21,049 nt of DNA from a virus. Below, in pieces: positions 1,106 to 17,759 of the stretch (position 1 is its first letter; each line of letters opens with the position of its first letter). The notes under the pieces were generated by a model that saw only the letters and a list, made by a program, of their open reading frames with translations, did no database searches and had not been told where the DNA came from. Where the stretch lies: IMG/VR virus record IMGVR_UViG_3300006802_012955, positions 1-21,049 of that record; one strand, written 5' to 3'. Position numbers and translations under genes: made by a program.

Positions 1106-1113
1106 GTTTAAAC
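1106..1113. repeat. GTTTAAAC palindrome in a ribosome-binding-site spacer
   Basis: Exact copy of the octamer found 12 times in the window. It fills nearly all of the 11-nt gap between two genes: its first G is the last base of the AGGAG ribosome-binding site, and it ends 1 nt before the GTG start of the downstream gene. A protein bound here, or pairing of this mRNA stretch with another copy, could affect translation start. That role is inference. Confidence 0.9.
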
Positions 1114-1115
1114 TC

Positions 1116-2204
1116 CTATTTACCGCCAAACATAATATTGCTGTTTGGATCTTGCTGTCCTGGCGCAAACCCAGTGTTGCCTGGCGTTGGTTTTTGTATC
1201 GGCTGTGTGTTAGGTGGTAAATTTCCTGGGTTCTGCAAGCTTCCTGGTTGCTGGAACTGAAACAGGTTCGAGAAGTCAGGTTGTGGCCTGTTAGCAAAAT
1301 CTCTGGCTATATTTACGTTATCTTGAGCTAGCCTGAAGTTGCGGTTATCGTTTCGTCTGGACTGACCAAGATCGACTCCACCAAACCAGAGTCCAGCTCT
1401 ACCAGCAGCTAAGCGCCTCATCTGCTCGTCATTTAGAAGCTGACGGTTTAGCTCATCGCCTCTAGCAAAAGTCGTAGCATCGCCAAAGTTTCGTAGTGCC
1501 TCTGCGCCTCTTTCGAACTCGTTTTGGGTCTGATCGCCTAAGAATTTAGACAGGTACTCCCTACGCTGGTTCTGGATATCTATGTTTTGGACCTGCAAAT
1601 CCTGCTCCATTTGCTGTTGAGCGCGGAATCTCTCCCTAGCCAAGTCTCTAAACTGAGCGCCACCAGCAGCGCCACGTACCCCAGAAGCTCCCTGTAAGCT
1701 CGCTAGCGCTCGTCTCTGTGTAGCTAGGTCTCTGTCTAGCTCACGCTGAGAAGCCTCCCTTATGGCCGTCTGTTCGTCTGCCATGAGGCCACCAAGGCCA
1801 CCTTGCATCTTATCTATGATGGCCTGTATGTCTTCAGGGCGTTGACCAGCTGTATTGGCCTGTTCTTCAAAGCGCTTTAAGAGACTGTTCATCTCATCGC
1901 TGCGGTTTTCGTCTACTAGACCACCGATAGCATCGACGTTCGGCAGGAACTTCTGGCCTAGAGCATCGCCTAACTTGGCATCCTTAGCGCCTCCCTTACC
2001 CAACCCCTTGCTGATAGCCTTATCACCAGCCTTACCGGAGAAGGTGCTAGGCTCTTTGGCACCAGGAAACTTGTTCTTATTGACCTTACCGCCACTGTCC
2101 TTGATCTTACCGATGATTTTATCGAGCTTTTTCTGGCTAAGATTGCCTTGGGCTAACTTGTCCTTAAGCTTCTTAATCTTCTTCTTGTTCTTCTTTTTTG
2201 CCAT
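1116..2204 (-). CDS. Gln/Arg-rich coiled-coil virion protein, possible ejection protein
   Basis: 362 residues. The first 40 are strongly basic (MAKKKNKKKIKKLKDKLAQG). Residues about 100-240 are long amphipathic helix rich in Gln, Arg, Glu and Ala, and the last 55 are Pro/Gln/Asn-rich and probably disordered. I do not recognise a named domain. The gene sits between a beta-domain virion protein and another coiled-coil protein, just downstream of the tail nozzle, which is where short-tailed phages keep ejection proteins. It resembles in style the protein encoded at 7585-8454 (arginine/glutamine coiled coil beside a Gly/Ala segment). The start ATG at 2204 has AAGG about 7 nt upstream and follows the previous stop by 2 nt. 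Function is inferred from context only. Confidence 0.8.
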   Translation of the reverse strand: MAKKKNKKKIKKLKDKLAQGNLSQKKLDKIIGKIKDSGGKVNKNKFPGAKEPSTFSGKAGDKAISKGLGKGGAKDAKLGDALGQKFLPNVDAIGGLVDENRSDEMNSLLKRFEEQANTAGQRPEDIQAIIDKMQGGLGGLMADEQTAIREASQRELDRDLATQRRALASLQGASGVRGAAGGAQFRDLARERFRAQQQMEQDLQVQNIDIQNQRREYLSKFLGDQTQNEFERGAEALRNFGDATTFARGDELNRQLLNDEQMRRLAAGRAGLWFGGVDLGQSRRNDNRNFRLAQDNVNIARDFANRPQPDFSNLFQFQQPGSLQNPGNLPPNTQPIQKPTPGNTGFAPGQQDPNSNIMFGGK

Positions 2205-2206
2205 AA

Positions 2207-2788
2207 TTAAGCCTTAGTTCTGTATGTTACGGTTAAACGAAACTCTGTTCCTGACGTTAGGTTCCAGTTGGCTGCGTCATATAAGCCGATGGCAATAGTG
2301 TCGATATTAGCCAAGGACCACCAGACGCACGACTTTGGATTACCCCCTTGGTCGGCATATCCACCACCACCGTTTAGCTCATCAGGGTGCATAGGCAGGG
2401 GAACAGTAAACCTAAGTTGTCTTCCAGGGCTGGCAGGAGGCGAAGACGAGGTAGTCCCCCCAGCTCTAATCCTCAACCTGACTTCATTTTTATTGACGTA
2501 CTTATATTCGGCTAAATGTGTAGTAACACTAGTAAAAAGCATGTTTCCCGAAGCAGAGTAAGTAGGTGTCCAGGTCTTCCAGCTCCTATCCTCTGGTTCC
2601 CATAGGCCCGTCTCGCCATTAAAGTAGACCCCCCAACCGTCTTCAGGCTTGATAGAAGGATCCATTTTGAGGCGCTGGCGTATATTGTTGTTTAGCTCAT
2701 CAGCCCAAGCCTTAAGGGTAGCTTCTGGTGTTCCTAGAACCTGTAGTCCTGAACCTCGCCTCGTGGCACTCTCGGAAGCTCTAGCCAT
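2207..2788 (-). CDS. Beta-domain virion protein of unknown function
   Basis: 193 residues. An N-terminal helix (residues about 20-45, ending near NNNIRQRLKMDP) is followed by a Trp-rich beta domain that opens WKTWTPTYSASGN and ends with alternating strands (EFRLTVTYRTKA). The 'WTPTYSASGN...' opening and the Gly/Thr-rich strands are typical of small beta-sandwich domains on phage virion proteins. No enzyme motif is seen. The ATG overlaps the last codons of the nozzle gene by 8 nt, and GAGG lies about 9 nt upstream, so translation is probably coupled. It could be a tail accessory or fibre-attachment protein, but the sequence does not decide this. Confidence 0.8.
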   Translation of the reverse strand: MARASESATRRGSGLQVLGTPEATLKAWADELNNNIRQRLKMDPSIKPEDGWGVYFNGETGLWEPEDRSWKTWTPTYSASGNMLFTSVTTHLAEYKYVNKNEVRLRIRAGGTTSSSPPASPGRQLRFTVPLPMHPDELNGGGGYADQGGNPKSCVWWSLANIDTIAIGLYDAANWNLTSGTEFRLTVTYRTKA

Positions 2789-5666
2789 CGTCTACTTCCT
2801 CGTTAAACGGAGTCACTACCTCGTACTCCCATCCTGTAAGTCTTACGGGCGTGTGTAAAGTGTTGTTTGAAAATTCTAGCTGTAAAGCCCTGGATTTATT
2901 AGACTTGAGCTTAGACCTGACTTCTCTGGTGCTACCAGCAGTAAACGTCTGTGTATAGCTGCTATGAGAGCTAGAGCTATCAAAATTGCGGTAGCTTTTT
3001 ACAGTCAGAGTGAAATCAGTTGTGTTTAAACTCGGATCGATACTCCAGGTTTTCTGGTGAAGGAACTTCTTGTTAGTCGACGGCGCTCCCACATCTTCCC
3101 AGGTAGGTGACAGTTTAAACTCAATCGGCTGAACATCATCTGCATAGTCGTACTGATCGCCACGAGTAAGTTCGGTATAGGTTGCTGACTTTACAGCGCT
3201 AGCGCCTGTGGGAACAAAGCAGCTAAGCCAGACTAGTTTTTCTTCAAAAATCTCCATTCCCCCGTACCCGTTAATGTACTCAGGGAATACCCACTCAAAC
3301 CAACTGCCGTTTTCATAGTCATAAACAAACCAGCGAGAGTTCTCGTTTGGATGCCTACCATCCGACACTAACGGATTGACTGTAGCGTCCACTGCTCCCT
3401 CTTCTGCTGGTACAAACAGAATCCATAACTTCCTAACATAGTCATTAACCGAAGTAGCTCTAGCTGCAACAAGTTTTGATTCGTTACTAGTCGAGATCGT
3501 AGTACCGTCTTCTTGGATGTATTTTTGACCCTTAAACTCGTTAGCCAGGACAGTCGGAAACTGGGGATCTATCACTCCATTGCTTTGCCGTTGTGGCCCT
3601 TGGTGTGAGAGCCAACATAACCCAACCTGTAGAGACTGTATGGAGTGATGCGAAGGACATCCTATACCGTCCTCTTGGATCTGTACGGTGAAGGTGTTAT
3701 TGGCGAGATCGCCGAAAACAATCGCACGAGAGTTTTCTTTAAAAACAACCAGTGCGCCATTATCTATACCAAGCCCAGTAATCGGGCCTTTCGTAGTGAA
3801 CTGTATATCAAAAGAGTTAGATGCTAACGGAAAGCCCTCAATATTATCAGGTTCAGAAAAGTAAACTGTATTTGGGTTATCCAAGTCACCAGACAGAATC
3901 GAAAGTCCTTGATGCGTAATGATAAATCTACATTTTGGCGGAGGGTCTGGATCTCTTACGGGCAAAATATACTTCGCTCCGAGTTCATCATCAGGAACAC
4001 TATCAACGTATGTCTGTAGGGATGCAGTGATCATCCTAGTAGCAGTGGGCGTAAAAACCTCAACTGTAGCGAAGCCCCAAGGGATCTCTTCTACTAAGAA
4101 CTTATCAACACCACCTGCCTTTGTGCGATAGATCCGTATCCTACCGTTAGTAGAAACCACACTCGGCCCTGCGCCCAGAGTTACAGGGTTCCCGTCCACC
4201 TCGATTTGGGCTGGTAATGCGCTAGAATCTGTAACCGTTCTTTCTACATAGGCCGAATCGACCTCATCATAAAAATAAACCTTCTCACCCACAGTTACTT
4301 GCAAGTTAGCTATACCGTCACAAACAATTGTATTGCTAGTTGTTGTGGTGGTAGCTAGACCACCTCCCAACAAAAACTGATCGCCTCCTGTATCAACTCG
4401 ATAAGCCCTTGCTCCTGAAGCCCAGGCTGACAGTGAAGTGTCCAACTCTAAAGTAACAGTTGTGGCAGCATCTTGAATCGCCGTAATTACTCCTGACTCT
4501 GCACCAGAGCTTGTTAGTACACGCACTGTCTCGCCAACTTTTAACCCTTGAGTTTTGCCTTTATAGTCAGTCTTAGACAACACCAAGCTAGTCCCAGAAC
4601 TAGCACCATTGGCCTTGCCTATAATGTCGAACAGCTCTGGGGAAAGCACGGAGATATCCCCATCCTCGCCAGAGAAGGTGATCTCAAAATCATCAGAAAG
4701 TGGCCCCTCAAAAATGTTCCCTCTATTGTCTTTTTGGGCATAAGCGAAAGCGTAAATGTAATCGCCAGTAAGTGTAGAGCTTCCAGTCGTTGCAACCACA
4801 GTGTTAGTTTCAAGCGGAGGCAATGGCAATCCAGCTCTAAAAACTCTGATACCATCATACTTTAATAGGTAGTCGTTAGGGGCAATATATAGCAGGTTTT
4901 GTGCAGTCTGCATGGTTGGATTTACGAAACCAGCAGCGTAAGGAGAATAGGCCGTGGGGGATGTAAACTGAGTTGGGTAAAAGATAAAAACTGTCTCTTC
5001 GTAGTAAACTTCTATGGTTGTGGAAGTTGAACTGATATCTAAGTCTATTTGTATTGGGACAGACCAGGCAGCAATAGAGGTGTCAGCAATTAAAGAAGCG
5101 TTCCACGTACACGTATAAGTGCCAGTGCCGTTTGCAACGTCAAGCCCGTTGATCTGATCTACTATCTGTTCTAGATCCTTTGCGGTACCGCCTGAGATGT
5201 CGTCTTGGGCAGTGCCGAATGTTTGAGGGAAGGTTCTGTTGGTATCAACGGACACTCCGTCTTCTTTTATGTCTAGCTCCCACACATTAGAAGAGTTTGG
5301 TTTAAACGTGAGAGTAACTGTTGAGGCCGTGCCACCTGCTGGATAGCCTATTTCAAGGTTGTCCTTAGAGAGCTTCGTCAAACTGCTGCCAACAGAACCG
5401 TAGCTTGGTCGATATAAAATTAATTGCTGAATGGTTGCGCCCGTATCTTTATCCAAGTAGGTGTAGTTTTTAATTCCCCTACCATCATTATTGTCATTAG
5501 ATGCGGAAAGTGTTTTACACCCAGGCCGTTTGACAACATCAAAGTTTTCATCAATCAGCATGTTTTGCGCCGTGCCAGCGTAGCCCTGTGGGCGTGTTAG
5601 GTCGCTAAAGCCTTTATGTATGCCCAGAAAATTCTCAAAATTTCTAAGAATAGTTTTCTGTCCCAT
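2781..5666 (-). CDS. Tail nozzle / tail tubular protein B-like
   Basis: Large beta-rich protein, 961 residues from the preferred ATG at 5666, compared with 794 in T7 gp12. It would form the distal tube of a short tail under the adaptor. Near residues 650-720 it has the signature seen in nozzle or stabilisation proteins of short-tailed phages: a hydrophobic strand ending in VVFKENSRAIVFG, then an ED-GIGCPSHHS segment and a CWLSHQGPQ strand. The N-terminus (GFSDLTRPQGYAGTAQN, KRPGCKTL) also fits. An upstream in-frame TTG at 5684 would add six residues. The ATG at 5666 is preferred because it overlaps the adaptor stop as TAATG, though no clear Shine-Dalgarno precedes it. It directly follows the adaptor gene, as in T7. 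Three GTTTAAAC copies lie inside it. Confidence 0.87.
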   Translation of the reverse strand: MGQKTILRNFENFLGIHKGFSDLTRPQGYAGTAQNMLIDENFDVVKRPGCKTLSASNDNNDGRGIKNYTYLDKDTGATIQQLILYRPSYGSVGSSLTKLSKDNLEIGYPAGGTASTVTLTFKPNSSNVWELDIKEDGVSVDTNRTFPQTFGTAQDDISGGTAKDLEQIVDQINGLDVANGTGTYTCTWNASLIADTSIAAWSVPIQIDLDISSTSTTIEVYYEETVFIFYPTQFTSPTAYSPYAAGFVNPTMQTAQNLLYIAPNDYLLKYDGIRVFRAGLPLPPLETNTVVATTGSSTLTGDYIYAFAYAQKDNRGNIFEGPLSDDFEITFSGEDGDISVLSPELFDIIGKANGASSGTSLVLSKTDYKGKTQGLKVGETVRVLTSSGAESGVITAIQDAATTVTLELDTSLSAWASGARAYRVDTGGDQFLLGGGLATTTTTSNTIVCDGIANLQVTVGEKVYFYDEVDSAYVERTVTDSSALPAQIEVDGNPVTLGAGPSVVSTNGRIRIYRTKAGGVDKFLVEEIPWGFATVEVFTPTATRMITASLQTYVDSVPDDELGAKYILPVRDPDPPPKCRFIITHQGLSILSGDLDNPNTVYFSEPDNIEGFPLASNSFDIQFTTKGPITGLGIDNGALVVFKENSRAIVFGDLANNTFTVQIQEDGIGCPSHHSIQSLQVGLCWLSHQGPQRQSNGVIDPQFPTVLANEFKGQKYIQEDGTTISTSNESKLVAARATSVNDYVRKLWILFVPAEEGAVDATVNPLVSDGRHPNENSRWFVYDYENGSWFEWVFPEYINGYGGMEIFEEKLVWLSCFVPTGASAVKSATYTELTRGDQYDYADDVQPIEFKLSPTWEDVGAPSTNKKFLHQKTWSIDPSLNTTDFTLTVKSYRNFDSSSSHSSYTQTFTAGSTREVRSKLKSNKSRALQLEFSNNTLHTPVRLTGWEYEVVTPFNEEVDDG
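3024..3031. repeat. GTTTAAAC palindrome inside nozzle gene
   Basis: Exact octamer, read in the gene as AGT TTA AAC (Ser-Leu-Asn). It lies 89 bp from the next copy at 3113. Confidence 0.9.
3113..3120. repeat. GTTTAAAC palindrome inside nozzle gene
   Basis: Exact octamer, read as GAG TTT AAA CTG (Glu-Phe-Lys-Leu). It makes a close pair with the copy at 3024. Confidence 0.9.
5300..5307. repeat. GTTTAAAC palindrome inside nozzle gene
   Basis: Exact octamer, read as ACG TTT AAA CCA (Thr-Phe-Lys-Pro), about 360 nt after the gene start. Confidence 0.9.
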
Positions 5667-6613
5667 TAGCACATGATATCCCAATCACTAACAGGAAAGT
5701 CGAAAGTATCTTCGCTAGGGTCTGCAAAGCTATCTAGGATGGTAGACTCGATTTGTTGTAGCAACATCTCTTGCTTCTTAGAATCTTCAGAGCTGTCTAG
5801 CTCCATCATTCTAAGCGCTGCGTACTCAGACAGATAGCGATAGCAGTTACGAGGCAAGCCCGTTAGGCAAGTTGTATACGAGCCGATGGTTACATAATCA
5901 CCAGCAGAGATAGTACCGCCAGTTAGTAGCTGACTAGCTGATAGCGTGATCGTTGGTGAAGAGTAACTAGCTACTGATAAGTTTTGATAAGTAGAAAGCC
6001 CGTTAGAATCGGTAACACAAATAGTATTACCACCTTTAGCACTAGTGAGCGTAGCCAACGCAGTGTCATCAAGAATATCATCAGCGGTTAAAGTGATAGT
6101 TGTATAGCTTGTGCCGTCATTAGCAGTTGAGGCTACAGTGCCTCTGCGTAAATCTAGGTTATCAAGCTCTCTGTAGTAACTAACCCGAATCTTACCTATT
6201 GTAGTTGTAGGTATAGGAGATAAGAGAATCTGGCCACTGCGCCTAATATAGTAGGCTGGGTGAGTGTTAGTGTAAGTACGCCGTTCCCTTAAAGTAGCAG
6301 GTCGAAGAGGGTAGTAGTCTTTAAGATTGCCAGTTGCGGAATACTCTACCAGTTTAAACCGATTGTTAATGAACACCTGATCAGGCACGTCGTAGGCTTC
6401 CTGATTACTAACAATAGGGATGATCTTCTCAGCTATAAACTCTTCTGGATAGTTGTTGATAATAAGCGACTGTAGATGGTCCTGGCCGTCATTAATCCAT
6501 TCGACTATATCGTCGTCGGGGATACCTTCATCTGCGCCATTCTCTTTGTTATCAGAGACTTTTCTCGCTCTAGCGATTAGCTCATCAACATAAACTTCTG
6601 CGTTATTGCCCAT
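5666..6613 (-). CDS. Head-to-tail adaptor / tail tubular protein A-like
   Basis: 315 residues. The N-terminal helical part has the pattern of phage adaptor proteins that dock on the portal: an ELIARAR helix, then IPDDDIVEWINDGQDHLQS (residues 31-49), then strands with YYPLRPATLRERR (100-112) and YYIRRSGQILLSPIP (121-135). A C-terminal helical region follows (YRYLSEYAALRMMELDSS, 258-275). Residues about 163-248 are a Thr/Ser-rich beta stretch inserted between these parts, which may explain why the protein is longer than T7 gp11 (196 residues). The ATG lies within the last codons of the lysozyme gene, with a run of G (AGGGGGG) just upstream. Position directly before the nozzle gene supports the call. 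Confidence 0.83.
   Translation of the reverse strand: MGNNAEVYVDELIARARKVSDNKENGADEGIPDDDIVEWINDGQDHLQSLIINNYPEEFIAEKIIPIVSNQEAYDVPDQVFINNRFKLVEYSATGNLKDYYPLRPATLRERRTYTNTHPAYYIRRSGQILLSPIPTTTIGKIRVSYYRELDNLDLRRGTVASTANDGTSYTTITLTADDILDDTALATLTSAKGGNTICVTDSNGLSTYQNLSVASYSSPTITLSASQLLTGGTISAGDYVTIGSYTTCLTGLPRNCYRYLSEYAALRMMELDSSEDSKKQEMLLQQIESTILDSFADPSEDTFDFPVSDWDIMC
6352..6359. repeat. GTTTAAAC palindrome inside adaptor gene
   Basis: Exact octamer, read as CGG TTT AAA CTG (Arg-Phe-Lys-Leu, residues 85-88). Confidence 0.9.
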
Positions 6614-7376
6614 TCAGCCCCCCTATACCCAACTTGTTTCTTATTGCTAAAAGCATCGCTCTTGCTGTTAAACTCGGTGTTTCCTCTGGGACTACCTCTG
6701 GAACGGGAGTAGGTGTCCCCTGTGGAATTGGCGCTGCTGCTATCTGCGGAGCAACGACAGGAGGAACTGGCGGAGGGGTTAGCATTTTCTGTTCTTCCTT
6801 TTTCTTATTGGCGAGAATGGTAGCTGCTGCTAATGCTAGGCCACGCACTTTCGAGTCTGGCTGTGGAGCCGTAACACTGTCCATGCTAGCTATTTGTGTT
6901 GGCTCTGTTTGGCCTGGCTTATTAAACCATACAGCCTCAAAACCCCTTCTTTTAGTTAGTCCATCTAGGACTTCTCCTGCCTGTTGGTTCCAGTCGGCAA
7001 AACTCTTTGTAGCACCCTCAAGATCCCCTCTATTGACTTGTTTAATTAACGTTGCAACGTGCCATTTGCCATTTTTTTTATACTTACCACCAGTGTTGTA
7101 ATGCCAAGAGACTAATGCATCTAGTTGGTTTTGATTAACAGGAACTTCAAGGTGGCTTTTGAGCCAATCTTCAGATCTTTTTATATCGTGATCAAAATAG
7201 GCTTGAGCTTCGGCCTCGTTTTTTAATACATCTCCTTTCTTAACTGGGGTTCCATCAGGGTAAACAGTAGTACCCCACCCAATAGTCCACTTGTCTTTTG
7301 GAGTAGGAAGATAAGCCTTCATTTTAAGCTTCTCGAACTTCTTGATGTACTCCTTCATTTCCTCAGAAGTTGCCAT
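6603..7376 (-). CDS. GH24-type phage lysozyme with long proline-rich C-terminal tail
   Basis: 257 residues. Residues 1-153 match the T4/lambdoid lysozyme family (GH24, peptidoglycan muramidase). The active-site region is KFEKLKMKAYLPTPKDKW followed by TIGWGTT, with E15 as the likely catalytic acid. The SWHYNTGG core motif is at 90-97 and the GLTKRRGFEAVW motif at 139-150. The usual E-x8-D-x5-T spacing is not kept: position 24 is Pro, and the nearest Asp before T31 is D28. After about residue 155 comes a tail not found in minimal endolysins: an Ala-rich segment, a Pro/Val-rich stretch (about 196-231) and a short hydrophobic-basic end (ARAMLLAIRNKLG). No signal peptide or transmembrane segment is obvious. 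It starts at a TAATG overlap with the previous gene. It may act in lysis, or be carried in the virion to help DNA entry, since it sits inside the tail and ejection cluster. Confidence 0.93.
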   Translation of the reverse strand: MATSEEMKEYIKKFEKLKMKAYLPTPKDKWTIGWGTTVYPDGTPVKKGDVLKNEAEAQAYFDHDIKRSEDWLKSHLEVPVNQNQLDALVSWHYNTGGKYKKNGKWHVATLIKQVNRGDLEGATKSFADWNQQAGEVLDGLTKRRGFEAVWFNKPGQTEPTQIASMDSVTAPQPDSKVRGLALAAATILANKKKEEQKMLTPPPVPPVVAPQIAAAPIPQGTPTPVPEVVPEETPSLTARAMLLAIRNKLGIGGLNGQ

Positions 7377-7588
7377 TATTTCTTTTTCTTCAATGTAAGA
7401 ACTAAAGCTTTAGCCTTAGACGAAGGCTTATCATCAGAATCCTCGTCTTTGCCCTTTTTGCCTTTTTTCATCATGGCCGAAGAAAAGCAGGACATACGTT
7501 TTGCTACACCGGATAACCCTTCCAAGGCTTCCATGATGATCACAGAGTCCTTGTGCATAGCTTCATAATCTTCATGTGACGGACTCAT
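7376..7588 (-). CDS. Small lysine-rich protein of unknown function
   Basis: 70 residues. An N-terminal acidic helix (SHEDYEAMHKDSVIIMEALEG) is followed by a basic and acidic low-complexity half that ends KKKK. There is no recognisable domain. It is translationally linked on both sides: its ATG overlaps the stop of the preceding gene as ATGA, with AGGAG 7 nt upstream, and its own TAA overlaps the lysozyme ATG as TAATG. Conserved spacing and a clear ribosome-binding site support a real gene. The basic end could bind nucleic acid, but this is a guess from composition. Confidence 0.75.
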   Translation of the reverse strand: MSPSHEDYEAMHKDSVIIMEALEGLSGVAKRMSCFSSAMMKKGKKGKDEDSDDKPSSKAKALVLTLKKKK

Positions 7589-8454
7589 CTTAATGCTCCT
7601 GTTAAAACTTGAGCTAAATTTTGTAACGCTCGACTCTGACCAGCAGAGCCTTGGTTGCCAGCAGAAATAGCAGAGTTGTTAGCGCTGATAATATTAGAGG
7701 TGTTTTGAGAAGCTAAGGCTTGGGCTTGCTGCGCTGCCTGAAGTTTTTGTAGGGCTTGCTCCATCTGTAAGCGTTGCTGAACGATTTGGTTCTCGAAAGC
7801 TCTCTGTCTCTCGTCAGCCTCTCGTTGCTCACGCACCAACTCTTCCTGTCGTCTAGCTTGCTTATCTTGCGCCTTGGCACCGAGTAGACCAGAACCTAGC
7901 TGACCACCTGTAATTAGCGCAGCAGCTAAACCTGTCTCTGAAGAAAGCGCATCAAGAAGCCCCTTGCTTAACGTTTTCTCTGTCGCTTTATCTACTACTT
8001 TATCTACTGGAGGCGGAGTAGTTAGTGCTGTTGTTGGAGGTGCTAGCGAGCCAGGGGTAGTGCCAGAAGCTAGAGCGCTGCCAATCGGATCGTAGCCAGG
8101 AGCGCCAAACGTACCACCATCAACAGAAGTGCCAAGAGGACCAGTTGGGGCCACGGTCGATGCTGCAATATCTGCGATACCAGGACTAGCAGCCTGAAAG
8201 CCAGGGATACCAGCAGAGCCGAGGACTTGGCCGAGGTTCACACCACTAGCAGCAGCAGGGGCTAGAATTGCAGTAGCCAGGGCGTGAAGCTCTGGATCTT
8301 TAGCTATAGATACGGCTGGGTTCACACCAAAGTTTATGACCTCGTTCGGTATCTCCTTGGGAAACTTATCTAGGACTTCATCAAGCTCGTTAGGAAATAT
8401 TTTGTCAGCAACACCCTTAACTGCGCTGGTTACTGATTTAAACGGATTGCCCAT
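7585..8454 (-). CDS. Internal-virion-like Ala/Gln-rich coiled-coil protein
   Basis: 289 residues from the preferred ATG at 8454. The N-terminal third is an amphipathic region (MGNPFKSVTSAVKGVADKIF). The middle (about 75-150) is Pro/Gly/Ala/Thr-rich and probably disordered. A short Gly/Ala/Leu-rich segment (LAAALITGGQLGSGLLGAKA, near 180-199) precedes an arginine/glutamine coiled coil (about 200-250). This resembles ejection or internal virion proteins of short-tailed phages, but I recognise no specific family. An upstream in-frame ATG at 8460 is rejected because the only ribosome-binding site, AAGGA, abuts it directly and is properly spaced (5-6 nt) for 8454. The stop overlaps the next gene as ATGA. 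Confidence 0.78.
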   Translation of the reverse strand: MGNPFKSVTSAVKGVADKIFPNELDEVLDKFPKEIPNEVINFGVNPAVSIAKDPELHALATAILAPAAASGVNLGQVLGSAGIPGFQAASPGIADIAASTVAPTGPLGTSVDGGTFGAPGYDPIGSALASGTTPGSLAPPTTALTTPPPVDKVVDKATEKTLSKGLLDALSSETGLAAALITGGQLGSGLLGAKAQDKQARRQEELVREQREADERQRAFENQIVQQRLQMEQALQKLQAAQQAQALASQNTSNIISANNSAISAGNQGSAGQSRALQNLAQVLTGALR

Positions 8455-8467
8455 AAACATCCTTACG

Positions 8468-8529
8468 GTTTAAACGTGAAACTATTAATATAGATTCTAG
8501 CTCTATAGTTCGACGCTATTAGTTTAAAC
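8468..8529. other. 62-bp non-coding element bracketed by two GTTTAAAC palindromes
   Basis: This lies in the 84-bp gap between the stop at 8539 and the start at 8454. GTTTAAAC occurs at both ends (8468-8475 and 8522-8529) and the copies could pair. Further symmetry lies inside: AAACTA (8479-8484) with TAGTTT (8520-8525), and TATAGA (8489-8494) with TCTATA (8502-8507) around a 7-nt loop. On the minus strand, TAATAGCG followed by CGAACTATAGA faintly recalls promoters of T7/SP6-type phage RNA polymerases (CACTATAG core), but the spacing is off by one and no second copy is seen. It could be an operator pair, a processed hairpin or a promoter. None is proven. Confidence 0.55.
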
Positions 8530-8538
8530 TGCGAAGCC

Positions 8539-9464: not shown

Positions 9465-11102
9465 TTAGTTTCTTAGATAAATACCGCTATTAGTTAGTAC
9501 AAACTCATTCCCACTCCCATTTGTTCCAGTACAAGTCACTCTGACTCTGATTAGCTGGCAAGCAATGGCGAAAGTCAAAGCTCTTTGCAGCCCACTCGCC
9601 GTGGCAGTATCTTCGTAGATCCAAGACGATAGCGGTCCAACCATCAGCTTGAAAAAGTTAGTCCCGTCATACGAACACTCAACTTCTATGACTATGTCCG
9701 TGGGAGTTCCGTTACTTTCAATATCAAGACAGACCGTTGCGTATCGATAGTTCCAACACTCAATGTTAGCGGATACGTCAGTTGTCGGACTGTCATCATA
9801 AGTCTGATCTAAGTCTGTTAGCGCAACATACTTGGAGTTGACCCCCTCAATTTGTTCGCCTCTTAAGTTCGTCGCAAGGTTAGCCCTATCGAGTTTTCCA
9901 ACTTCGGAAGGCTTATCAGAGTGTTCGTCCGATGCGTCTGGTTCGTAGTCGTGTCCCCGTCCGCCGACCTTGACCGGATTGCCCGAATCAGCAGCGTCGT
10001 GGGCAACATTGCCTACAACTTGAGCATTTAAGTTCGAAGCCGTCGCCTGAGCGACATCGTTATTAGTTCCCAGATTAACTAACAGCCCGTTGGTAGAGTC
10101 GCCACTGGCCCTATCCCACGTCGCTCCGTCGTACCACTGCGGATAGGTTCCTATTTTGGTTATAGTTGGGTTTGCTGTGTTATCCGCTGCCAATGCGACT
10201 GTGGGAAGCTTGCCATTAAGAGTAGAGAGTGTCGTCTCGGTTGCAATGTTTGCCGAGTTACTTTGCACCTCCCAAGGAGAAGCCCCTTGGTTTGCAGTGA
10301 CCGTTCCGTCTACGGTAATAGAGTTACCGCCATCCTGAATATTAACAGCCGAGGCTCCAGCAGCGTTGTCTATAGTTACATTATGACCGTCAGGAAGTTG
10401 ATTCCCTGCAATAGTTCCCAGGTCGGTTATTATGGAATCTTGCTTTCCTTCAGTTGCAGGATCTATGGGAGTGGCCGAAGTGTTTTTTAGCCCAACCGGA
10501 TCCGTTCCAAAAGACGAAACGATATTACCAGAAGCGTCAAGAATATGACTGTAAGAGGCTCCAAAGTTAGAACCTCTTTGGGTTATAATATCACCATCTG
10601 TTGACGTGACGGCAGCAGGGGTGTCGGCCCTAACTAGTTGTTTAACGCCACCTTCTGGATTCGCTGGTGCAGCAGCATCTTCGGTATATTCTGTACCACC
10701 ACCTCCCCCACCAGAAGCGTTAGTTTGCACCTCTCCATCGGCATTAACCTTTGGAGCCATATACCTGCGAATTGAAAAAGTGTCGGCAACGCCAGGAGCT
10801 TCAGCTAGTTCTTGAGAAAGCGTGATAGAGTTCGTAGCTACTTCTTTAACAGTAGCGATATGGTATTGCAGATTGCCAGAAGTGATGACAATGAAATCTC
10901 CCGTTTGTGCTGAGTGAGACGTGGCTACGATAGTTTGGGCAGTAGACCCTGATTCAGCAGCATCAGTGCCAACTTCAAAAGCATACAAGAGTGGTAGTGT
11001 GTTTAAACCGTAGAGATACGGGCCAGCCCTGTTGACAGTAGAAGGTTCAACTACACTACGGTCTTCCTTCTTCTCGGATGGGTAACCAGTTATCATCCCC
11101 AT
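9465..11102 (-). CDS. Large beta-rich structural protein, possible tail fibre or appendage
   Basis: 545 residues, rich in Thr, Asn, Gly, Ala and Asp. The N-terminal 120 residues include strands around TIVATSHSAQTGDFIVITSG and SITLSQEL, then a Gly run (GGGGGG, near 134). The middle has repeated short strands with 'LDASGNIVSSFG' and 'INIQDGGNSITVDGTVTANQG' character, as in phage fibre shafts and baseplate-like proteins. The C-terminal 125 residues form a compact beta domain (SYDGTNFFKLMVGPLSSWIY). No signal peptide is present. The ATG at 11102 follows the previous stop by 3 nt, and a weak AGAAG lies about 14 nt upstream. A host-contact role is plausible but unproven. Confidence 0.75.
   Translation of the reverse strand: MGMITGYPSEKKEDRSVVEPSTVNRAGPYLYGLNTLPLLYAFEVGTDAAESGSTAQTIVATSHSAQTGDFIVITSGNLQYHIATVKEVATNSITLSQELAEAPGVADTFSIRRYMAPKVNADGEVQTNASGGGGGGTEYTEDAAAPANPEGGVKQLVRADTPAAVTSTDGDIITQRGSNFGASYSHILDASGNIVSSFGTDPVGLKNTSATPIDPATEGKQDSIITDLGTIAGNQLPDGHNVTIDNAAGASAVNIQDGGNSITVDGTVTANQGASPWEVQSNSANIATETTLSTLNGKLPTVALAADNTANPTITKIGTYPQWYDGATWDRASGDSTNGLLVNLGTNNDVAQATASNLNAQVVGNVAHDAADSGNPVKVGGRGHDYEPDASDEHSDKPSEVGKLDRANLATNLRGEQIEGVNSKYVALTDLDQTYDDSPTTDVSANIECWNYRYATVCLDIESNGTPTDIVIEVECSYDGTNFFKLMVGPLSSWIYEDTATASGLQRALTFAIACQLIRVRVTCTGTNGSGNEFVLTNSGIYLRN
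11001..11008. repeat. GTTTAAAC palindrome inside the 545-residue structural gene
   Basis: Exact octamer near the gene start, read as GGT TTA AAC (Gly-Leu-Asn). The heptamer TTTAAAC is in the frame of a -1 slippery site, but the -1 frame stops after a few codons. Confidence 0.9.
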
Positions 11103-11105
11103 TCA

Positions 11106-11447: not shown

Positions 11448-11456
11448 ATAATCCTC

Positions 11457-12485
11457 CTAGAAATCATCTGCGTCATCAGAGCCGATGACAATTATGTGAC
11501 AATCATCTGCATCGCCTAAACTCCCTGAAGCATCAGCAGTCTCGATAGTACAAGCAGTAGCAGAAGAAGCAGAAACAGTTGCCCATGCATCAGTGCTATT
11601 ACCGGAGCAAACCACAACGATAGGTTCACGTTTAAACGCATCAGTATAGGTCAGAGTAAAAACGCCAGTGCCATCATCAACAACAGTACCGTCGCCAACA
11701 CCAGTAGTAACTGTGTCTTGGGTCGTAATGTGAAAGCCTAAGATTCTAGGCCGTCTCATTTGAGTCTGAATAGAGCTACCCATTCTCAAGCGATGCTCGT
11801 CCAGGGTATCCCAACCGATAGCAATGAAATTAAATGCTAGATCATCAGCAGAGTCCGACTCATCAAAAGTCAGGATGTTAATAGCTGAGGTCGTAGCAGA
11901 CTCAACTCGACATACTGCGCCTTGGTCAGCGGTAACTGGCGAAGCCACAACTACGGGAGTAGAAGCGAAAGCCCTCTTACCGCCAGTGCCAGTTAAGACA
12001 ATCGTATGATCGCCAGTACCGTTATCAGTAACAGAGAACTGATTACCACCGATTGTAACTGCGCCTAGAGCAGAGACTTGTCCTGCTATGATACGAGGCA
12101 TACGCCTTGTACCCTTAACAGACTGCATGTGCCTTAAAGGACCACCATAAGTCTGAGCATCGGTAGAATCGTAACCGAGTATTAAAGCGTGGTGGGTTCC
12201 AACGTCAGAGCCAGTAGCCGTTACTGATATCGCTGAAGCCGTAGGGTCAGCAGTAAGATGAGTAGCAACACCGTCTGCGAGATCAGCACCAGGAGTTGCA
12301 ATCACAACTGGAGCGCGAGCAAACGGTTGGGCTAAAGCTAGATCTAACTCTTCGTCGTTATCTGCGTTAGTAAATGTGCCTTCTTCAGCACCTACGCTAA
12401 TTGTGTTGGCTGCGGAACCAGCAGTCGTGCCAGTGTAAGCGATAAGTCTAGGTCGTAAGTGGGGTGTCTTGATTGTGCGTAACAT
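11457..12485 (-). CDS. Three-repeat beta-rich virion protein
   Basis: 342 residues made of three related units of about 117 residues. Each starts with an R-x-P-R-hydrophobic motif (R11-PRLI, R128-MPRII, R245-PRIL). Each continues with a strand ending in an F-x-R/S-x-P-V/I-VV motif (near 55-62, 173-180 and the third unit's FKREPIVVV). Each then has an A-x-SAI/CTI strand and closes with a hydrophobic strand before an acidic turn (ALILGYDSTD, FIAIGWDTLD, IIVIGSDDAD). No catalytic residues stand out. Three-fold internal repeats suggest a pseudo-trimeric particle part or three carbohydrate-type beta domains. GGAGG lies 5 nt before the ATG. It is the first gene after the terminator, so it may have its own promoter or be read through. 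Confidence 0.78.
   Translation of the reverse strand: MLRTIKTPHLRPRLIAYTGTTAGSAANTISVGAEEGTFTNADNDEELDLALAQPFARAPVVIATPGADLADGVATHLTADPTASAISVTATGSDVGTHHALILGYDSTDAQTYGGPLRHMQSVKGTRRMPRIIAGQVSALGAVTIGGNQFSVTDNGTGDHTIVLTGTGGKRAFASTPVVVASPVTADQGAVCRVESATTSAINILTFDESDSADDLAFNFIAIGWDTLDEHRLRMGSSIQTQMRRPRILGFHITTQDTVTTGVGDGTVVDDGTGVFTLTYTDAFKREPIVVVCSGNSTDAWATVSASSATACTIETADASGSLGDADDCHIIVIGSDDADDF
11630..11637. repeat. GTTTAAAC palindrome inside the three-repeat gene
   Basis: Exact octamer in the third repeat unit, read as GCG TTT AAA CGT (Ala-Phe-Lys-Arg). Confidence 0.9.
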
Positions 12486-12520
12486 AAAAGCCTCCGGTAT
12501 CTATCACGGGTAATGTAAAC

Positions 12521-12536: not shown

Positions 12537-12550
12537 TTGTTACGTTGTGC

Positions 12551-13069
12551 TTAAGTTGCCCATCCAGCCCAGCAAGTGTCTGTCGCATCCCAAACAAAGA
12601 GAGCGTTTTCACCAGCAGCTATAACTACGGTAACTCCAGCACAGACATTCGAGGTTGCCTCGGCTGCCATAGTGGTAGTACCGCTAGCATCCTTATCAAC
12701 AGAGATAAGAGCCAACTGGCCGTGAACAGCTCCAGCTTCCATAATCACACCAGTAATGGCACCAGCATTAGTAATGCGTTGCCAAAACTGAGTGGTATCA
12801 ATAGTGCCAGAAGTAGCAACAGTTGTTGCAGCCGTACCAGCAGCAGGATTCGAGATAGGCACTCTCGCAGTTCCGCTAGCCATGTTCAGCACAAGCGTTC
12901 CCGAACCAGGCAGGTTTAACACCAAGTCGGCGTTGCTCTTAGAGCTAAGCATTGGTGTTCCTGTTAGGTCCAACGTTCCATTTGCTCCACTCAGTGCGTA
13001 AGCAACAAGCGGAACTCCAATTACTATCCCTGCCAAAAAGGTAAGAGATGTTTTTAGTATCTTATTCAT
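12551..13069 (-). CDS. Signal-peptide-bearing beta-rich protein next to the capsid gene
   Basis: 172 residues. The N-terminus looks like a Sec signal or membrane anchor: MNKILK, a hydrophobic core from about residue 9 to 23, then AYA at 23-25 as a good signal-peptidase I site. There is no lipobox cysteine. The rest is Gly/Ala/Thr-rich beta strand, ending NVCAGVTVVIAAGENALFVW then DATDTCWAGW, with two cysteines 19-20 residues apart that could pair. The C-terminal pattern (GQLALISVDKDASG, then a strand ending LFVWD) resembles small phage surface or head-fibre domains. AGGAG lies 5 nt before the ATG, and the gene starts 11 bp after the capsid stop and ends just before the terminator, so it is probably co-expressed at capsid levels. 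Its function is unknown. Confidence 0.78.
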   Translation of the reverse strand: MNKILKTSLTFLAGIVIGVPLVAYALSGANGTLDLTGTPMLSSKSNADLVLNLPGSGTLVLNMASGTARVPISNPAAGTAATTVATSGTIDTTQFWQRITNAGAITGVIMEAGAVHGQLALISVDKDASGTTTMAAEATSNVCAGVTVVIAAGENALFVWDATDTCWAGWAT

Positions 13070-13080
13070 AACAGCTCCTA

Positions 13081-14286
13081 TTAAGTAGCAAGTCCAGTGA
13101 TTACACCGTGGAATGGAGGTGCAATGTATGTTTCCATGTATCCACCGTACCGAGCCTCGTAAGAGTCTTCGTTAGTACGTAGAAATACTGTCCCATCATC
13201 GTCAAACCAACCGAAACCAGGGCGGTGAAATATCTCAATGAAGTTATCATTAAGAACATACACCCTGTCATCCTCACAGAATCTCTCTGGGAAGATACCG
13301 ATTGGTCCTTGAGAACTCATGAACTCGACTCCCTCAAAAGAGACTTTCCCTTTCAAGTTCTTAGCCCGTGGGTCAAGAGAGTATCGTTTTTGGTCTTCAA
13401 GTTGGTTCAGGATCTTCTCGTACTGAAGGTACGAAGTAAGGATCATGTTTGGAGTTTTACCAGAACGTTTCTCAACGTTAAGCATGGTCTTGTTCAGCAA
13501 GTCTGGAGTAATACCAGCACTAGCAGCAGCTAGCTGATAAGACTGCCATCGACGAGCAATAGCTACACCATACTTAGATCCAGTAGTTGCATCTAACACG
13601 CCCTTGAGTCCTTCAGGATCGTTATCCTTAGAACCCTGCATGTAGATCACTTCTGTATCGGCAGGAGTGTGTGTCGCACCAGATTGAGCAACAAGGCTTA
13701 TAACCCTGGTATCTGCATCAACAGCAGAAACTTCAAAAAGGTCAGTAGAGGTGTCAACGTTTACGAAGTCACGCTCCTCGAAGTTGGCCTCTTTCCAGGT
13801 AGCAGACGAAATCGTACACAAGTACGGATCGCCTGAAGTCCCTGTCCCAGTTACCGCAGCTCCGATTGTTCCAAGAGCGCCTGTACCGTCGCCAAATAGC
13901 GCACGAGACATGTTGCGGTTCCAAGACTCAACTGTCTTCTTAACAGTCTCTTTGGTGCCACGAACGAAAGAACCCTCGTCCGACATAGATGCCTTAACCG
14001 ACTCTCTGTCATATCGTGTTACCGCATACATCTTCTTAGCAGTGAAGAATACGTCCTCATAGTTGGCGACGTTAGCTTCAGGCAAAGATCCAGATCCAAC
14101 TCCACCTTGGAAAGACAGAGGAATCGGAAATTCCATCTTCTTACCAACGAAGTTGTAACTTTTCTTTACTCTACCAAGTAGTACGTTTGCGGAGTTATAT
14201 GAGTTATCAGAAAGCTGGCCGTATTTGATTTTAAAGAGATTCGACGCTTCCGTCAGATCCCAATTGGCCTGCAAATTAGTAGCCAT
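13081..14286 (-). CDS. Major capsid protein, HK97-fold type
   Basis: 401 residues, placed directly after the scaffold gene. The N-terminal arm (ANWDLTEASNLFKIKYGQ) is followed by SYNFVGKKMEFPIP and by FTAKKMYAVTRYDRES. A helix (TVKKTVESWNRNMSRALFG, near 115-135) matches the spine-helix region of HK97-fold coat proteins. A beta insertion follows (about 140-210), and the C-terminal half ends with VLNDNFIEIFHRPGFGWFDD and a YEARYGGYMETYIAPPF strand, typical of phage coat proteins. There is no N-terminal protease-cleaved delta domain, which agrees with a separate scaffold. The perfect AGGAGG at 14297-14292, 5 nt before the ATG, is among the strongest ribosome-binding sites in the window and fits the most abundant virion protein. 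Confidence 0.9.
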   Translation of the reverse strand: MATNLQANWDLTEASNLFKIKYGQLSDNSYNSANVLLGRVKKSYNFVGKKMEFPIPLSFQGGVGSGSLPEANVANYEDVFFTAKKMYAVTRYDRESVKASMSDEGSFVRGTKETVKKTVESWNRNMSRALFGDGTGALGTIGAAVTGTGTSGDPYLCTISSATWKEANFEERDFVNVDTSTDLFEVSAVDADTRVISLVAQSGATHTPADTEVIYMQGSKDNDPEGLKGVLDATTGSKYGVAIARRWQSYQLAAASAGITPDLLNKTMLNVEKRSGKTPNMILTSYLQYEKILNQLEDQKRYSLDPRAKNLKGKVSFEGVEFMSSQGPIGIFPERFCEDDRVYVLNDNFIEIFHRPGFGWFDDDGTVFLRTNEDSYEARYGGYMETYIAPPFHGVITGLAT

Positions 14287-14345
14287 ACAACCCTCCTGTG
14301 GGTAGTAAATAAAGCGTTAAAGGTTATAAAAGCTCGACTTAACGA
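14287..14345 (-). promoter_or_regulatory. Leader of the capsid gene with strong ribosome-binding site and inverted repeat
   Basis: This is the 59-bp gap between scaffold and capsid genes. It holds AGGAGG (14297-14292), 5 nt before the capsid ATG. Upstream is an inverted repeat, CGTTAA and TTAACG separated by about 18 nt that include TTTTATAACC. TATAAC could serve as a -10 box, but I find no matching -35, so a promoter here is only a possibility. Confidence 0.45.
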
Positions 14346-15620
14346 CTAGTAAACGTCGTCTAGGTCATCGAAGCTGAAGATATCTTCCTCTTCGGGCGCT
14401 TTTGGTGCCTTTGGCTTTGCTTTATCGGAGGATTGCTTTTTCGACTTAGTAGACTTCGCCTTCTTAGATGGTGAAGTGCGTCTTGAAGCGCTCTCTTGAG
14501 CTGGAGCCTCAGTATTATCAAACCCATCATCATCGACCTCATCGTCGTCTGAATCAGAGTCATCATCTTCTAAAAGTTCCTTAACAACATATTTTAAGTC
14601 ACTCTCAGATAATCCATTGTTGGCAACATTAATTATCGTGTCAACAAACTCTTTGTCTTCAAGCAGTTCTGGGGCCAGCTCTTTAATGACCGACTGTGCT
14701 TTTGAGACATTAGAAAACTCAGTGTGAAACTTAGCTACGTAGTTCACAATCTCGGCGTGATTCAAGCGAGAGTCTATGGCGTTTTCTTTTAGTAAATACT
14801 CGTATGATTCTTTAAATTCGTTAGGGGCAATGCCTTTCTCGTTTAAGACTTTACCAATATAGCCTTCTAGTTGTTGTTGGTATTGCTGGGACTGTTGCTG
14901 GTTTTTCTGCTTTTCTATTTCTCGCTTTTCATAAGCCAGCTTCTTTTTCTCTAAGAACGTTTGCTGGGAGTCTTCGTCTAAAGCACCAAACTCTTCTGCT
15001 ATACCAGCAGCCTCCTTGAGGTAGCTTTCTACAAACTCGCCTTCGTTTACGCCTGCCATCTGACAGAGAAATTCTAGCGCCTCGTAGGGCTTTCCAGACT
15101 TAGCCAGGTCAGCGAGCTTGGTTAAGTTCTGGTTTACTAAGGTCATATTGTCGTTGAACTTCTTCTCTTTGGCTCCTAGCTCTCCGAACCTACTGTTCCA
15201 AGCAGTTTTGCCTGCATACTCAGCTAGTAGGTCATCTAGGGTTACCTCTACCTCTTCGCCAGCTACTTTATGTTTAAACCGTGCATCGCTAGTTAGCTCT
15301 ATCTCGTCATCACCCTGCATGGCTATGAGCTTTCGGACCTTTCGGACCTTATCCATCGCAGCCCTCTTTTCTTCTGGGGTTGAGGCGTTCTCAACGTCAT
15401 CGACGGCATCTTGGGCTTGCTGCTCTAGGGTATCAACAACTTTCTCGGAAACTTGGATCTTACGACTGGCCTCTTCGGCGATCTCGTCGCTCTTAACCTC
15501 GTCGCTGGCCTCCATCATTGCGTCTAGGTCATCAAAAGATGCTCCCGAACCTGGTCCAACTGAAATTTTAGGCTCTGCGCCTACATCGGAGGGGGTACTC
15601 GAATCTGTTTCTGAGGCCAT
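14346..15620 (-). CDS. Capsid scaffold protein
   Basis: 424 residues, acidic and highly helical, located between portal and coat genes, which is the classic position of the assembly scaffold. Acidic N-terminal and central segments are predicted to coil (DTLEQQAQDAVDDVENAS, and a Gln-rich helix near 240-255). A low-complexity acidic run (DDDSDSDDDEVDDDG, about 350-365) precedes a Lys/Ser/Pro-rich basic patch and a final acidic peptide ending DDLDDVY. A basic patch near the C-terminus is the coat-binding feature of scaffolds such as that of P22. The ATG at 15620 has no recognisable Shine-Dalgarno: the leader is an A/T-rich run, which is unusual beside its neighbours. One GTTTAAAC copy lies within the gene and another in its leader. 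Confidence 0.87.
   Translation of the reverse strand: MASETDSSTPSDVGAEPKISVGPGSGASFDDLDAMMEASDEVKSDEIAEEASRKIQVSEKVVDTLEQQAQDAVDDVENASTPEEKRAAMDKVRKVRKLIAMQGDDEIELTSDARFKHKVAGEEVEVTLDDLLAEYAGKTAWNSRFGELGAKEKKFNDNMTLVNQNLTKLADLAKSGKPYEALEFLCQMAGVNEGEFVESYLKEAAGIAEEFGALDEDSQQTFLEKKKLAYEKREIEKQKNQQQSQQYQQQLEGYIGKVLNEKGIAPNEFKESYEYLLKENAIDSRLNHAEIVNYVAKFHTEFSNVSKAQSVIKELAPELLEDKEFVDTIINVANNGLSESDLKYVVKELLEDDDSDSDDDEVDDDGFDNTEAPAQESASRRTSPSKKAKSTKSKKQSSDKAKPKAPKAPEEEDIFSFDDLDDVY
15272..15279. repeat. GTTTAAAC palindrome inside scaffold gene
   Basis: Exact octamer, read as CGG TTT AAA CAT (Arg-Phe-Lys-His). It lies 373 bp from the copy in the same gene's leader. Confidence 0.9.
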
Positions 15621-15644
15621 AAATAATATAATAAGCGGATTTTA

Positions 15645-15668
15645 GTTTAAACGGCAATACCTATTGCC
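15645..15668. promoter_or_regulatory. GTTTAAAC abutting a 16-bp inverted repeat upstream of scaffold
   Basis: GTTTAAAC (15645-15652) touches the perfect inverted repeat GGCAATA-CC-TATTGCC (15653-15668). In RNA the repeat could form a 6-bp stem with a 4-nt loop between the portal stop and the scaffold start. On the minus strand TTGCCG, then an 18-nt spacer containing the palindrome, then TATTAT gives a poor sigma70-like promoter. This could be an operator, a processing hairpin or a promoter. The structure is seen directly; the role is inference. Confidence 0.5.
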
Positions 15669-15674
15669 CAGTAC

Positions 15675-17759
15675 CTATATCTGCACATCTGGCGGAGCTG
15701 CCTGAAGCGGTGGTAAATCACCACCTGGAGGGGCTTCCCCAACAGGCACTTCCCCTTGAGGTAGTGGTTCTTCGCCTGGCAAGGCTCCTGCCAAGTCGCC
15801 CTGACCGCCTGGAGGTATACCTGGGTCTTGTGGCGGTGGCGCTATCTGAGGTTTTTGTACTAAAAAGGCAGGAAATCCAGCTAGTTGCTGCAACACTTGA
15901 GCAAACGCTGGGTTAGCTACGGCCTTTTCTTCCATCAGAATCTCAGTTTGAGCTATATGATCTAGAAGCGACTCCCTGATAGGATCTGGAACGTTTTCCT
16001 TAAAATAACGGGTCTGAATAGGGATCATGTGGGTAGTCCAGTGAACCACTAAATCCTCAAACGGCTCTGGCTCGCCCACTTCTTTACCAGACAGAATATC
16101 CTCATTTTCTGACTCAGCAGATCGTAGGGCTGCCGTGGTGATGTCGTAAAACTTATCCACCTGGCCAAATTCAAGCATATCAGCCATCTGCTCCCTGGTT
16201 AAAAGACCTGGAATTTCTCTATTTAATTCAATAATTTGCGAGATTCTGCCAGCAAATGACTCGCTGAAAGCTGTAGTGTTCTGGATTTGTACGTCAAATG
16301 GGCCAGATAGCTTGGTCCCTCGCAGATCTTGTATCTGATATTGGTTATTTTTACCCAAAATACGAATTAAACGACCGTCATCTTCCTTCGTGTAGTCACT
16401 AAAGACACCTAAAGCCTTACGGGTAACTCGTTTGATGAAGTTATTGTGCTTGGTAATATGAGTATTTCTGCCCTTTCGCTCCTGTTCTTCTAGGAACTGC
16501 AAGGCTATACCAGCCCTAATCCCTGGAGGCGGTGTCCCACGAGACACCCCATGCTCTCCAGAGATTTGCTGAAGCTCCTGAAGCACTTTGTCTCTAAATG
16601 CGTAAGCCTCTGACGGATTAGCAGCGAAATTCACGATCTGAGGGGCAGTTGGACCTCTGTAAGTCACTACGGTAGCCCTATTCGTCATGCTTTCTATCTT
16701 AGCTGCGCCTTCAGGCATCAGGATTTTAGGGTGCGCCACAAGAAAAAGGTTACGACTAATCAGGCTAGTAGTTTTGTTGTACTGGTGCTGAATTGGTCGA
16801 AGAATATTGTACCAGCTCTGGCCATGTAGTCTCGCTGGGGCATCGATATCAGTTAGGCACTCAAAAGAAAAATCGTTGTGAGTATAAGGATAGACCTTGG
16901 TTCTCTCTACCACCTCATCGCTAACGATGCGGATAACAACCCCTTCCGGTATAAACTCACTAGGCTTTACCTGGACACGATACACTATGACTTCTTCTTC
17001 TCGCTTTTCGTCTTCGGCATCAGCAAAGCCATAAATCTTACAAGAATCGCTAGGCTTTAGGTTGGGCTTATTGAACTTCTTGCGAGCTTCTTCAATGTGA
17101 ATAATCTCTTCTATATCAATAACATAGCTGACTTCTCGCCAGTGCCTCTTAGGTTCTGGGAAGACAAACCAAGGCTCTTTGATGCGGTAGCAAACATCTC
17201 CGATAGGATTACCCTTATCGTCTTTGTCGCCAATACTCTTATCCCAGCCAATATCTAAGTAAATCTCCCCAAAGACTCGCTTCCAGCGCTGGAGTCTCTG
17301 CATCAACTCTTCGAATTGGTTCTTCTGGTTAATGTACTTAACGACCATCTGCCCTAAATCAGCACTCACCTTGTCGCGGTGTTCATTGTTTGCAGGACCG
17401 ACATAAACGTTCGGTTTAAACTGTGAGAGGTGACTTACATGCTGTTCGGTTAAGTCAGTAAGATGAGAGATAACAACAGGCATGATGCGCTTAGGTAGTA
17501 CCACGTCTCGGTTGTTTGGAATCCGAAAAGTGTACTCCTGGGTCTGATCGAACCAGCCCATATACCAGCACAAGTTATTCTTGTACTCGGCGATGCGGTC
17601 CTTAGCCAACTCTTCTAGGATCGGCAACGTATTCCTAAACCACTTAATAGTCTTTTTGTCAGTTTTGTAAGCGTTCTCAAACCAAATAGGCTTTAGAGGC
17701 TCTTTGTTAGAAGCTGCAACATCACTATATTCGTTAAAAACATCGCCTTTAGTAGTCAT
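15675..17759 (-). CDS. Portal protein
   Basis: 694 residues, the right size and position (after large terminase, before scaffold) for the dodecameric portal through which DNA is packaged and ejected. Diagnostic stretches are the N-terminal wing with NLCWYMGWFD and LPKRIMPVVISHLTD, a beta region with RIKEPWFVFPEPKRHWRE, and the stem/clip region with SWYNILRPIQHQYNKTTSLI, where portals of short-tailed phages carry a similar Arg/Gln helix. After about residue 630 the chain becomes a Pro/Gly-rich tail of about 60 residues (IAPPPQDPGIPPGGQG and onward) that is probably disordered. The ATG overlaps the previous stop as ATGA, without a strong ribosome-binding site, so translation is coupled. Confidence 0.93.
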   Translation of the reverse strand: MTTKGDVFNEYSDVAASNKEPLKPIWFENAYKTDKKTIKWFRNTLPILEELAKDRIAEYKNNLCWYMGWFDQTQEYTFRIPNNRDVVLPKRIMPVVISHLTDLTEQHVSHLSQFKPNVYVGPANNEHRDKVSADLGQMVVKYINQKNQFEELMQRLQRWKRVFGEIYLDIGWDKSIGDKDDKGNPIGDVCYRIKEPWFVFPEPKRHWREVSYVIDIEEIIHIEEARKKFNKPNLKPSDSCKIYGFADAEDEKREEEVIVYRVQVKPSEFIPEGVVIRIVSDEVVERTKVYPYTHNDFSFECLTDIDAPARLHGQSWYNILRPIQHQYNKTTSLISRNLFLVAHPKILMPEGAAKIESMTNRATVVTYRGPTAPQIVNFAANPSEAYAFRDKVLQELQQISGEHGVSRGTPPPGIRAGIALQFLEEQERKGRNTHITKHNNFIKRVTRKALGVFSDYTKEDDGRLIRILGKNNQYQIQDLRGTKLSGPFDVQIQNTTAFSESFAGRISQIIELNREIPGLLTREQMADMLEFGQVDKFYDITTAALRSAESENEDILSGKEVGEPEPFEDLVVHWTTHMIPIQTRYFKENVPDPIRESLLDHIAQTEILMEEKAVANPAFAQVLQQLAGFPAFLVQKPQIAPPPQDPGIPPGGQGDLAGALPGEEPLPQGEVPVGEAPPGGDLPPLQAAPPDVQI
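17414..17421. repeat. GTTTAAAC palindrome inside portal gene
   Basis: Exact octamer, read as CAG TTT AAA CCG (Gln-Phe-Lys-Pro). It is the rightmost copy; none is found from here to 21049. Confidence 0.9.

Follow-up and report, generated by a model that had tools for sequence, protein, structure and literature searches.

The octamer GTTTAAAC, which occurs 12 times in a 21,049-base viral record analysed over its whole length (hereafter, the window), behaves as a site that is maintained for binding by a phage protein, and this reading is well supported by comparisons made at the sequence level. We propose, with a probability of about 0.6, that this protein is a phage DNA-binding protein of the SprT/Spartan fold and that this holds for the window phage too. 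The two parts of the proposal are held with different confidence: the SprT-like family is very probably the direct reader of the motif, and use of the same family by the window phage is likely, with somewhat less assurance.

The window covers part of a tailed-phage genome, and its minus strand carries a structural module in which the genes for terminase (18133-19641), portal (15675-17759), capsid (13081-14286) and endolysin (6603-7376) were located. All 12 copies of GTTTAAAC in the initial annotation of these 21 kb were found at exactly the positions given there, and its count of 20 TTTAAA hexamers was reproduced. The claimed over-representation was also borne out, the expected number of copies being 0.44, 0.97 and 1.7 under Markov models of order 1, 3 and 4, respectively, and about 0.6–0.67 once the sites were masked. 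Models of order 5 and 6, which had been suggested for this purpose, gave 4.3 and 8.4 expected copies against 12 observed, and these values are circular because the GTTTAAAC sites themselves train the model. The probability of 12 or more copies in the window is ~6e-10 (order 3), and GTTTAAAC is its commonest 8-mer, the runner-up palindromic octamers having two copies each. Furthermore, the contig L073, which is the same record as L001, is 99.99% identical to the window over a 12.9-kb overlap and extends it by 4.8 kb containing three further copies, which brings the phage to 15 GTTTAAAC in 25.8 kb (0.58/kb; P about 2e-12). Searches with the terminase and portal returned this near-identical overlapping contig only, and the window ends used as exact-sequence queries found no further extending contig. 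The overlapping contig also contains (L073:2665-4068(+)) what appears by eye to be a subtilisin-type secreted protease with a lipoprotein-like signal, which is unusual beside a phage structural module.

Four of the window copies are wholly intergenic, as had been claimed, and the non-coding share of the window is 1.92% (p = 6e-5). The copy at 1106..1113 is 1 bp upstream of the GTG start of ORF 1-1104(-) and overlaps the Shine-Dalgarno spacer; those at 8468..8475 and 8522..8529 are 7 bp upstream of the ATG and 61 bp upstream of ORF 7585-8460(-), respectively; and the copy at 15645..15652 is 24 bp upstream of ORF 14346-15620(-), three of the four lying 1–24 bp upstream of a start codon. The other eight are within genes, namely at 3024..3031, 3113..3120 and 5300..5307 in ORF 2781-5684(-), 6352..6359 in ORF 5666-6613(-), 11001..11008 in ORF 9465-11102(-), 11630..11637 in ORF 11457-12485(-), 15272..15279 in ORF 14346-15620(-) and 17414..17421 in the portal gene. 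Six of these eight are read as NNG TTT AAA CNN, as initially counted, and those at 3024 and 11001 as NGT TTA AAC; the Phe-Lys bias carries little information because the third frame holds the stop TAA, leaving two frames. That coding copies have just two possible reading frames is also what can be said for a chance or codon-usage artefact as the source of the window's GTTTAAAC, an explanation that is practically untenable and that we regard as already refuted by the probability of about 1e-12, by the location of 4 of 12 sites within 1.9% non-coding DNA, and by the retention of the motif at homologous places between related phages.

The octamer count in related phages, which the initial annotation had proposed as a check, came out at background when relatives were defined by the capsid. 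The 70 viral contigs whose capsid proteins are related to that of the window (45–67% identity) contain 14 GTTTAAAC against about 19 (19.3) expected, and therefore the enrichment is a recent or local property of the window phage. The wider capsid-sharing group was rejected as the source of the motif, having neither the enrichment nor a SprT-like gene; the SprT-like protein was absent from 30 unenriched capsid-relative records of 18–43 kb.

The association of the octamer with a protein family emerged from DNA alone. A protein-blind scan of 2.9 million viral contigs selected those with three GTTTAAAC within a short range, and a second DNA-only scan used the variant GTGTAAAC; a large number of the first-scan matches showed very strong enrichment, one being L260, with 28 GTTTAAAC in 9.2 kb at 50% GC. 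Comparison of the proteins of the first-scan contigs revealed one family common to 14 of them, of ~200 residues, SprT-like and with a C-terminal zinc ribbon. Over both scans, this protein is encoded in 25 of the 35 contigs where dispersed sites are dense and in 1 of 91 sparse contigs (p = 3e-17, which like the other p-values is optimistic, the phages being phylogenetically non-independent). The dense contigs without it are mainly fragments, and several of them share genes with carriers or belong to a record that has the gene elsewhere. In the reverse scan, contigs were picked solely by a back-translated zinc-ribbon stretch and the protein was then confirmed. The 117 contigs selected in this way contain 648 GTTTAAAC against about 11 (11.2) expected, and in about three quarters of them it is the top palindromic octamer; a non-redundant set of 127 contains 838 against about 14 (14.2) expected. 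Furthermore, the SprT-like family was the sole sense-strand protein family common to 11 unrelated phages. A few contigs, such as L280 and L341, encode the SprT-like protein and have none of the motifs. The phage-encoded DNA-binding protein that the initial annotation had envisaged thus has a candidate in the SprT-like/zinc-ribbon family, linked to the octamer in other phages.

The motif-bearing phages span GC contents of 0.34–0.72 and hosts from Arthrobacter to E. coli and Pseudanabaena, which makes it very unlikely that the phage simply mirrors a GTTTAAAC-rich host genome through an oligomer bias of the HIP1 kind. Such a bias would find some support in the raised GTTTAAAC counts of two MAG genomes with no SprT-like match, namely an Aquimarina MAG (G037, L108; 382 GTTTAAAC against 44 of the reversed pattern) and an Omnitrophota MAG (G038, L119; 289 against 27). 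Against it, the MAG G074 carries the SprT-like gene, yet has 12 copies in its entire 2.9 Mb, three of which form an array 0.9 kb from that gene. A triple-cluster scan of bacterial genomes gave no HIP1-typical high local density among the matches listed.

The family corresponds to PHROG 6361, which is listed as of unknown function and is annotated as ‘SprT-like protease’ in many actinophages. PF10263 matched the protein of L189 at the cut-off and that of L233 just under it. In the predicted structure (pLDDT 92.8), a metalloprotease fold resembling that of Spartan precedes a small C-terminal domain set apart from it, and the best matches of residues 1–118 of the model were SPRTN 6mdx/6mdw (Z 8.2, rmsd 3.2–4.0 Å). 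HExxH is present in most family members and was lost in at least four lineages whose tail is intact and in which the motif remains strongly enriched. In these comparisons, the motif follows the C-terminal tail and not the protease. The protein-selected contigs had themselves been chosen by the tail, and the independent test came from isolates found by BLAST. All 18 isolates examined retain HExxH; those with the Q-x-T-R tail have GTTTAAAC or GTGTAAAC above expectation in 12/12 cases, and those without it hold none or one motif copy in 6/6 (Fisher p = 5e-5, with a smaller effective number as these six represent about three lineages). Motif counts were low in some of the Q-x-T-R isolates (2 in F_TK1718, 4 each in Arya and Persinger), and no clear substitute motif emerged when phages with the SprT-like protein minus QxTR were searched for one. 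In the clade that uses GTCTAAAC, the PHROG 6361 match is confined to the C-terminal part of the protein. We incline slightly to the broader view that the phage ‘SprT-like proteases’ are a large, cross-host family of site-specific DNA-binding proteins whose zinc-ribbon tail would organise or regulate entire phage genomes by way of evenly spaced GTTTA[A/C/G]AC sites, and in which the protease would be secondary and repeatedly discarded. The 54-residue profile phrog_34373 matches just the zinc ribbon of the SprT-like protein (L375:9506-10075(-), L388:31899-32507(+)), and therefore the tail may also occur as a stand-alone protein. In one clade, an AAA_5 ATPase often neighbours the SprT-like gene (L189:1-1063(-), L294, L304), and a second, larger HExxH-like protein is likewise a frequent neighbour there (L189, L294, L304).

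The 785 sites profiled give Y-GTTTAAAC-R, and beside GTTTAAAC the tolerated variants GTGTAAAC and ATTTAAAC are enriched 11-fold and 6.8-fold, respectively. This one-base tolerance is the pattern of a protein-binding site and not of a restriction site. In many protein-bearing phages a one-base variant replaces GTTTAAAC altogether: GTCTAAAC is found at 13–26 copies in one clade, for which the SprT tree shows monophyly (support 99/91); in Arthrobacter, Microbacterium and Streptomyces phages the variant is GTGTAAAC, at 17–38 copies. The motifs of L233, Tweety19 and L375 are GTTTAAAC, GTGTAAAC and GTCTAAAC, respectively. The motif classes cluster on the protein tree, with 25 changes against 31.5 when shuffled and 0 of 200 shuffles as low. 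One contig of 63% GC (L336), with a divergent SprT-like match of 38 bits, has 5 CTTTAAAG against 0.01–0.02 expected, which is possibly a further motif switch. An 8-bp palindrome would suit a restriction or methylation target, but that explanation is extremely unlikely here, since the strict recognition of a single sequence expected of such a target is contradicted by the enrichment of the variants alongside GTTTAAAC and by their switching between clades, whole clades being on non-palindromic variants, and since the sites show intergenic and positional bias. The methylase and RNA-pairing readings of the initial annotation agree poorly with the enriched one-base variants and with the clades that use non-palindromic variants in both orientations; its reading as the site of a phage protein was retained on the basis of DNA-level conservation, intergenic bias, one-base tolerance and the linked gene family.

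The sites are under selection in the phages that carry the protein. When two Arthrobacter phages were compared, 13 of 15 sites proved identical as compared with 24% for any 8-mer (p = 5e-7), a conservation at the level of the DNA. Of 994 sites in the protein-bearing contigs, 421 fall in non-coding DNA, where 128 would be expected, and site frequency peaks 0–20 bp upstream of start codons. Sites are spaced more regularly than by chance in Tweety19, DrSierra, Crosby and Pan1 (P 0.0002–0.002) and not so in Caron and L325. Tandem arrays are located 0–2.4 kb from the SprT-like gene in some phages, those of L226 and L235 having 13 copies spaced at 16–17 bp and 6 copies spaced at 24–26 bp, respectively. 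The orientation of variants is mixed overall, with 11:1 only in the intergenic sites of Tweety19. In the same phage a TAGACT box directly precedes several sites, and in E. coli phage Bas97 TATAAT precedes the site upstream of the SprT-like gene. The site conservation, intergenic peak, spacing, arrays and neighbouring boxes together suggest a phage-wide regulator of transcription with a stoperator-like spread of sites. In 29 of 106 cases, against 17 expected, a motif copy stands no more than 200 bp upstream of the SprT gene, which weakly hints at autoregulation. The DnaA boxes (TTATCCACA) are enriched 8-fold in SprT-bearing contigs, and in a subset (L189, L235, L332, L363 and others) clusters of 3–4 boxes in about 100 bp, 0.3–2.5 kb from the gene, are possibly a replication origin. 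Only Persinger among the eight motif-bearing isolates checked has a DnaA box, and thus these boxes do not explain the octamer.

In the proposed mechanism, the reader would be the PHROG 6361 protein of SprT/Spartan fold, whose C-terminal module, K-Q-[STG]-T-R followed by the zinc ribbon, may bind DNA physically by recognising Y-GTTTA[A/C/G]AC-R. Its sites would be maintained genome-wide, preferentially in intergenic gaps just upstream of starts and in genes too, with a tandem array near the gene in several relatives. The most likely role would be that of a phage-wide regulator of the phage's own transcription, acting at operators and as an elongation roadblock in the manner of stoperators, and an additional role in phage replication or packing is conceivable.

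The window fits the family in its octamer core, its density and its sites upstream of start codons, and distant homologues of its terminase and capsid occur in some of the phages that carry the SprT-like protein. The SprT-like gene was not found in the known 25.8 kb, small-ORF and C-terminal-profile searches included; if the window phage has the reader protein, its gene would be in the unsequenced part. A 111-aa double zinc-ribbon protein (L073:2095-2430) in the overlapping contig was considered and rejected, being no convincing relative of the tail (hhalign probability 3.6). The site list of the window has no tandem array and no significant even spacing. The flanks of the window sites prefer a purine, with a pyrimidine at −1 in 33% of the 30 half-sites of this phage as compared with 82% in protein-bearing contigs; YGTTTAAACR is the family majority and is not universal, low values also being seen in the family contigs L318 (33%) and L357 (42%). 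The missing gene and the purine-rich flanks would agree with another phage DNA-binding protein, such as a repressor, a nucleoid protein or a partition protein from outside the SprT-like family, as the reader of the window octamer. So would the iteron arrays of GTTTAAAC, spaced by about 21 bp or multiples, in a Polaromonas MAG and a betaproteobacterial MAG (L147:6930-7139, L162:7449-7794), whose genomes gave no SprT-like match, and therefore another protein may read GTTTAAAC. We consider such a different reader rather doubtful for the window, since most dense viral contigs have the SprT-like gene and the rest are mainly fragments, several sharing carrier genes. Membership of the window phage in the SprT-like/QxTR zinc-ribbon system is regarded as likely.

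If true, the proposal would assign both a function and a cis-element to the widespread phage family PHROG 6361 and would account for a 60-fold over-representation of an octamer in unrelated phages. The motif would foretell from sequence alone which phages have the SprT-like system, and E. coli phage Bas97, which has six sites, and Arthrobacter phage Tweety19 would be genetically tractable for testing a genome-wide regulator with a protease fold. Among the papers searched, none was found that connects a phage-wide motif with GTTTAAAC or with SprT-like proteins.

Among known systems, the stoperators of Cluster A mycobacteriophages (L5, TipsytheTRex) and Streptomyces phage R4 are many dispersed sites for one phage protein (PMC9283540, PMC10276819); they lack symmetry, and the repressor that recognises them combines an HTH with a stoperator domain (PMC9283540). 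Like them, the phage octamers are dispersed genome-wide and some overlap promoters. In contrast to the transcription-oriented asymmetry of stoperators, the main form of the octamer is palindromic, its variants occur in mixed orientation, and a zinc-ribbon protein of SprT fold is the candidate reader; the likeness is one of site layout. Operators of the KorB/ParB type are dispersed palindromes for regulation and partition, and the likeness to them extends to the dispersed palindromes only. HIP1 of cyanobacteria is likewise an over-represented 8-bp palindrome, but it belongs to bacterial chromosomes, whereas the enrichment of GTTTAAAC accompanies phages with a particular gene. The SprT/SPRTN (Spartan) DNA-protein-crosslink proteases (PF10263) have the same fold, and HExxH is kept in most phage members; the phage proteins differ in adding a C-terminal QxTR and zinc ribbon tied to a sequence motif, and several phage lineages have lost the protease site yet keep the motif.
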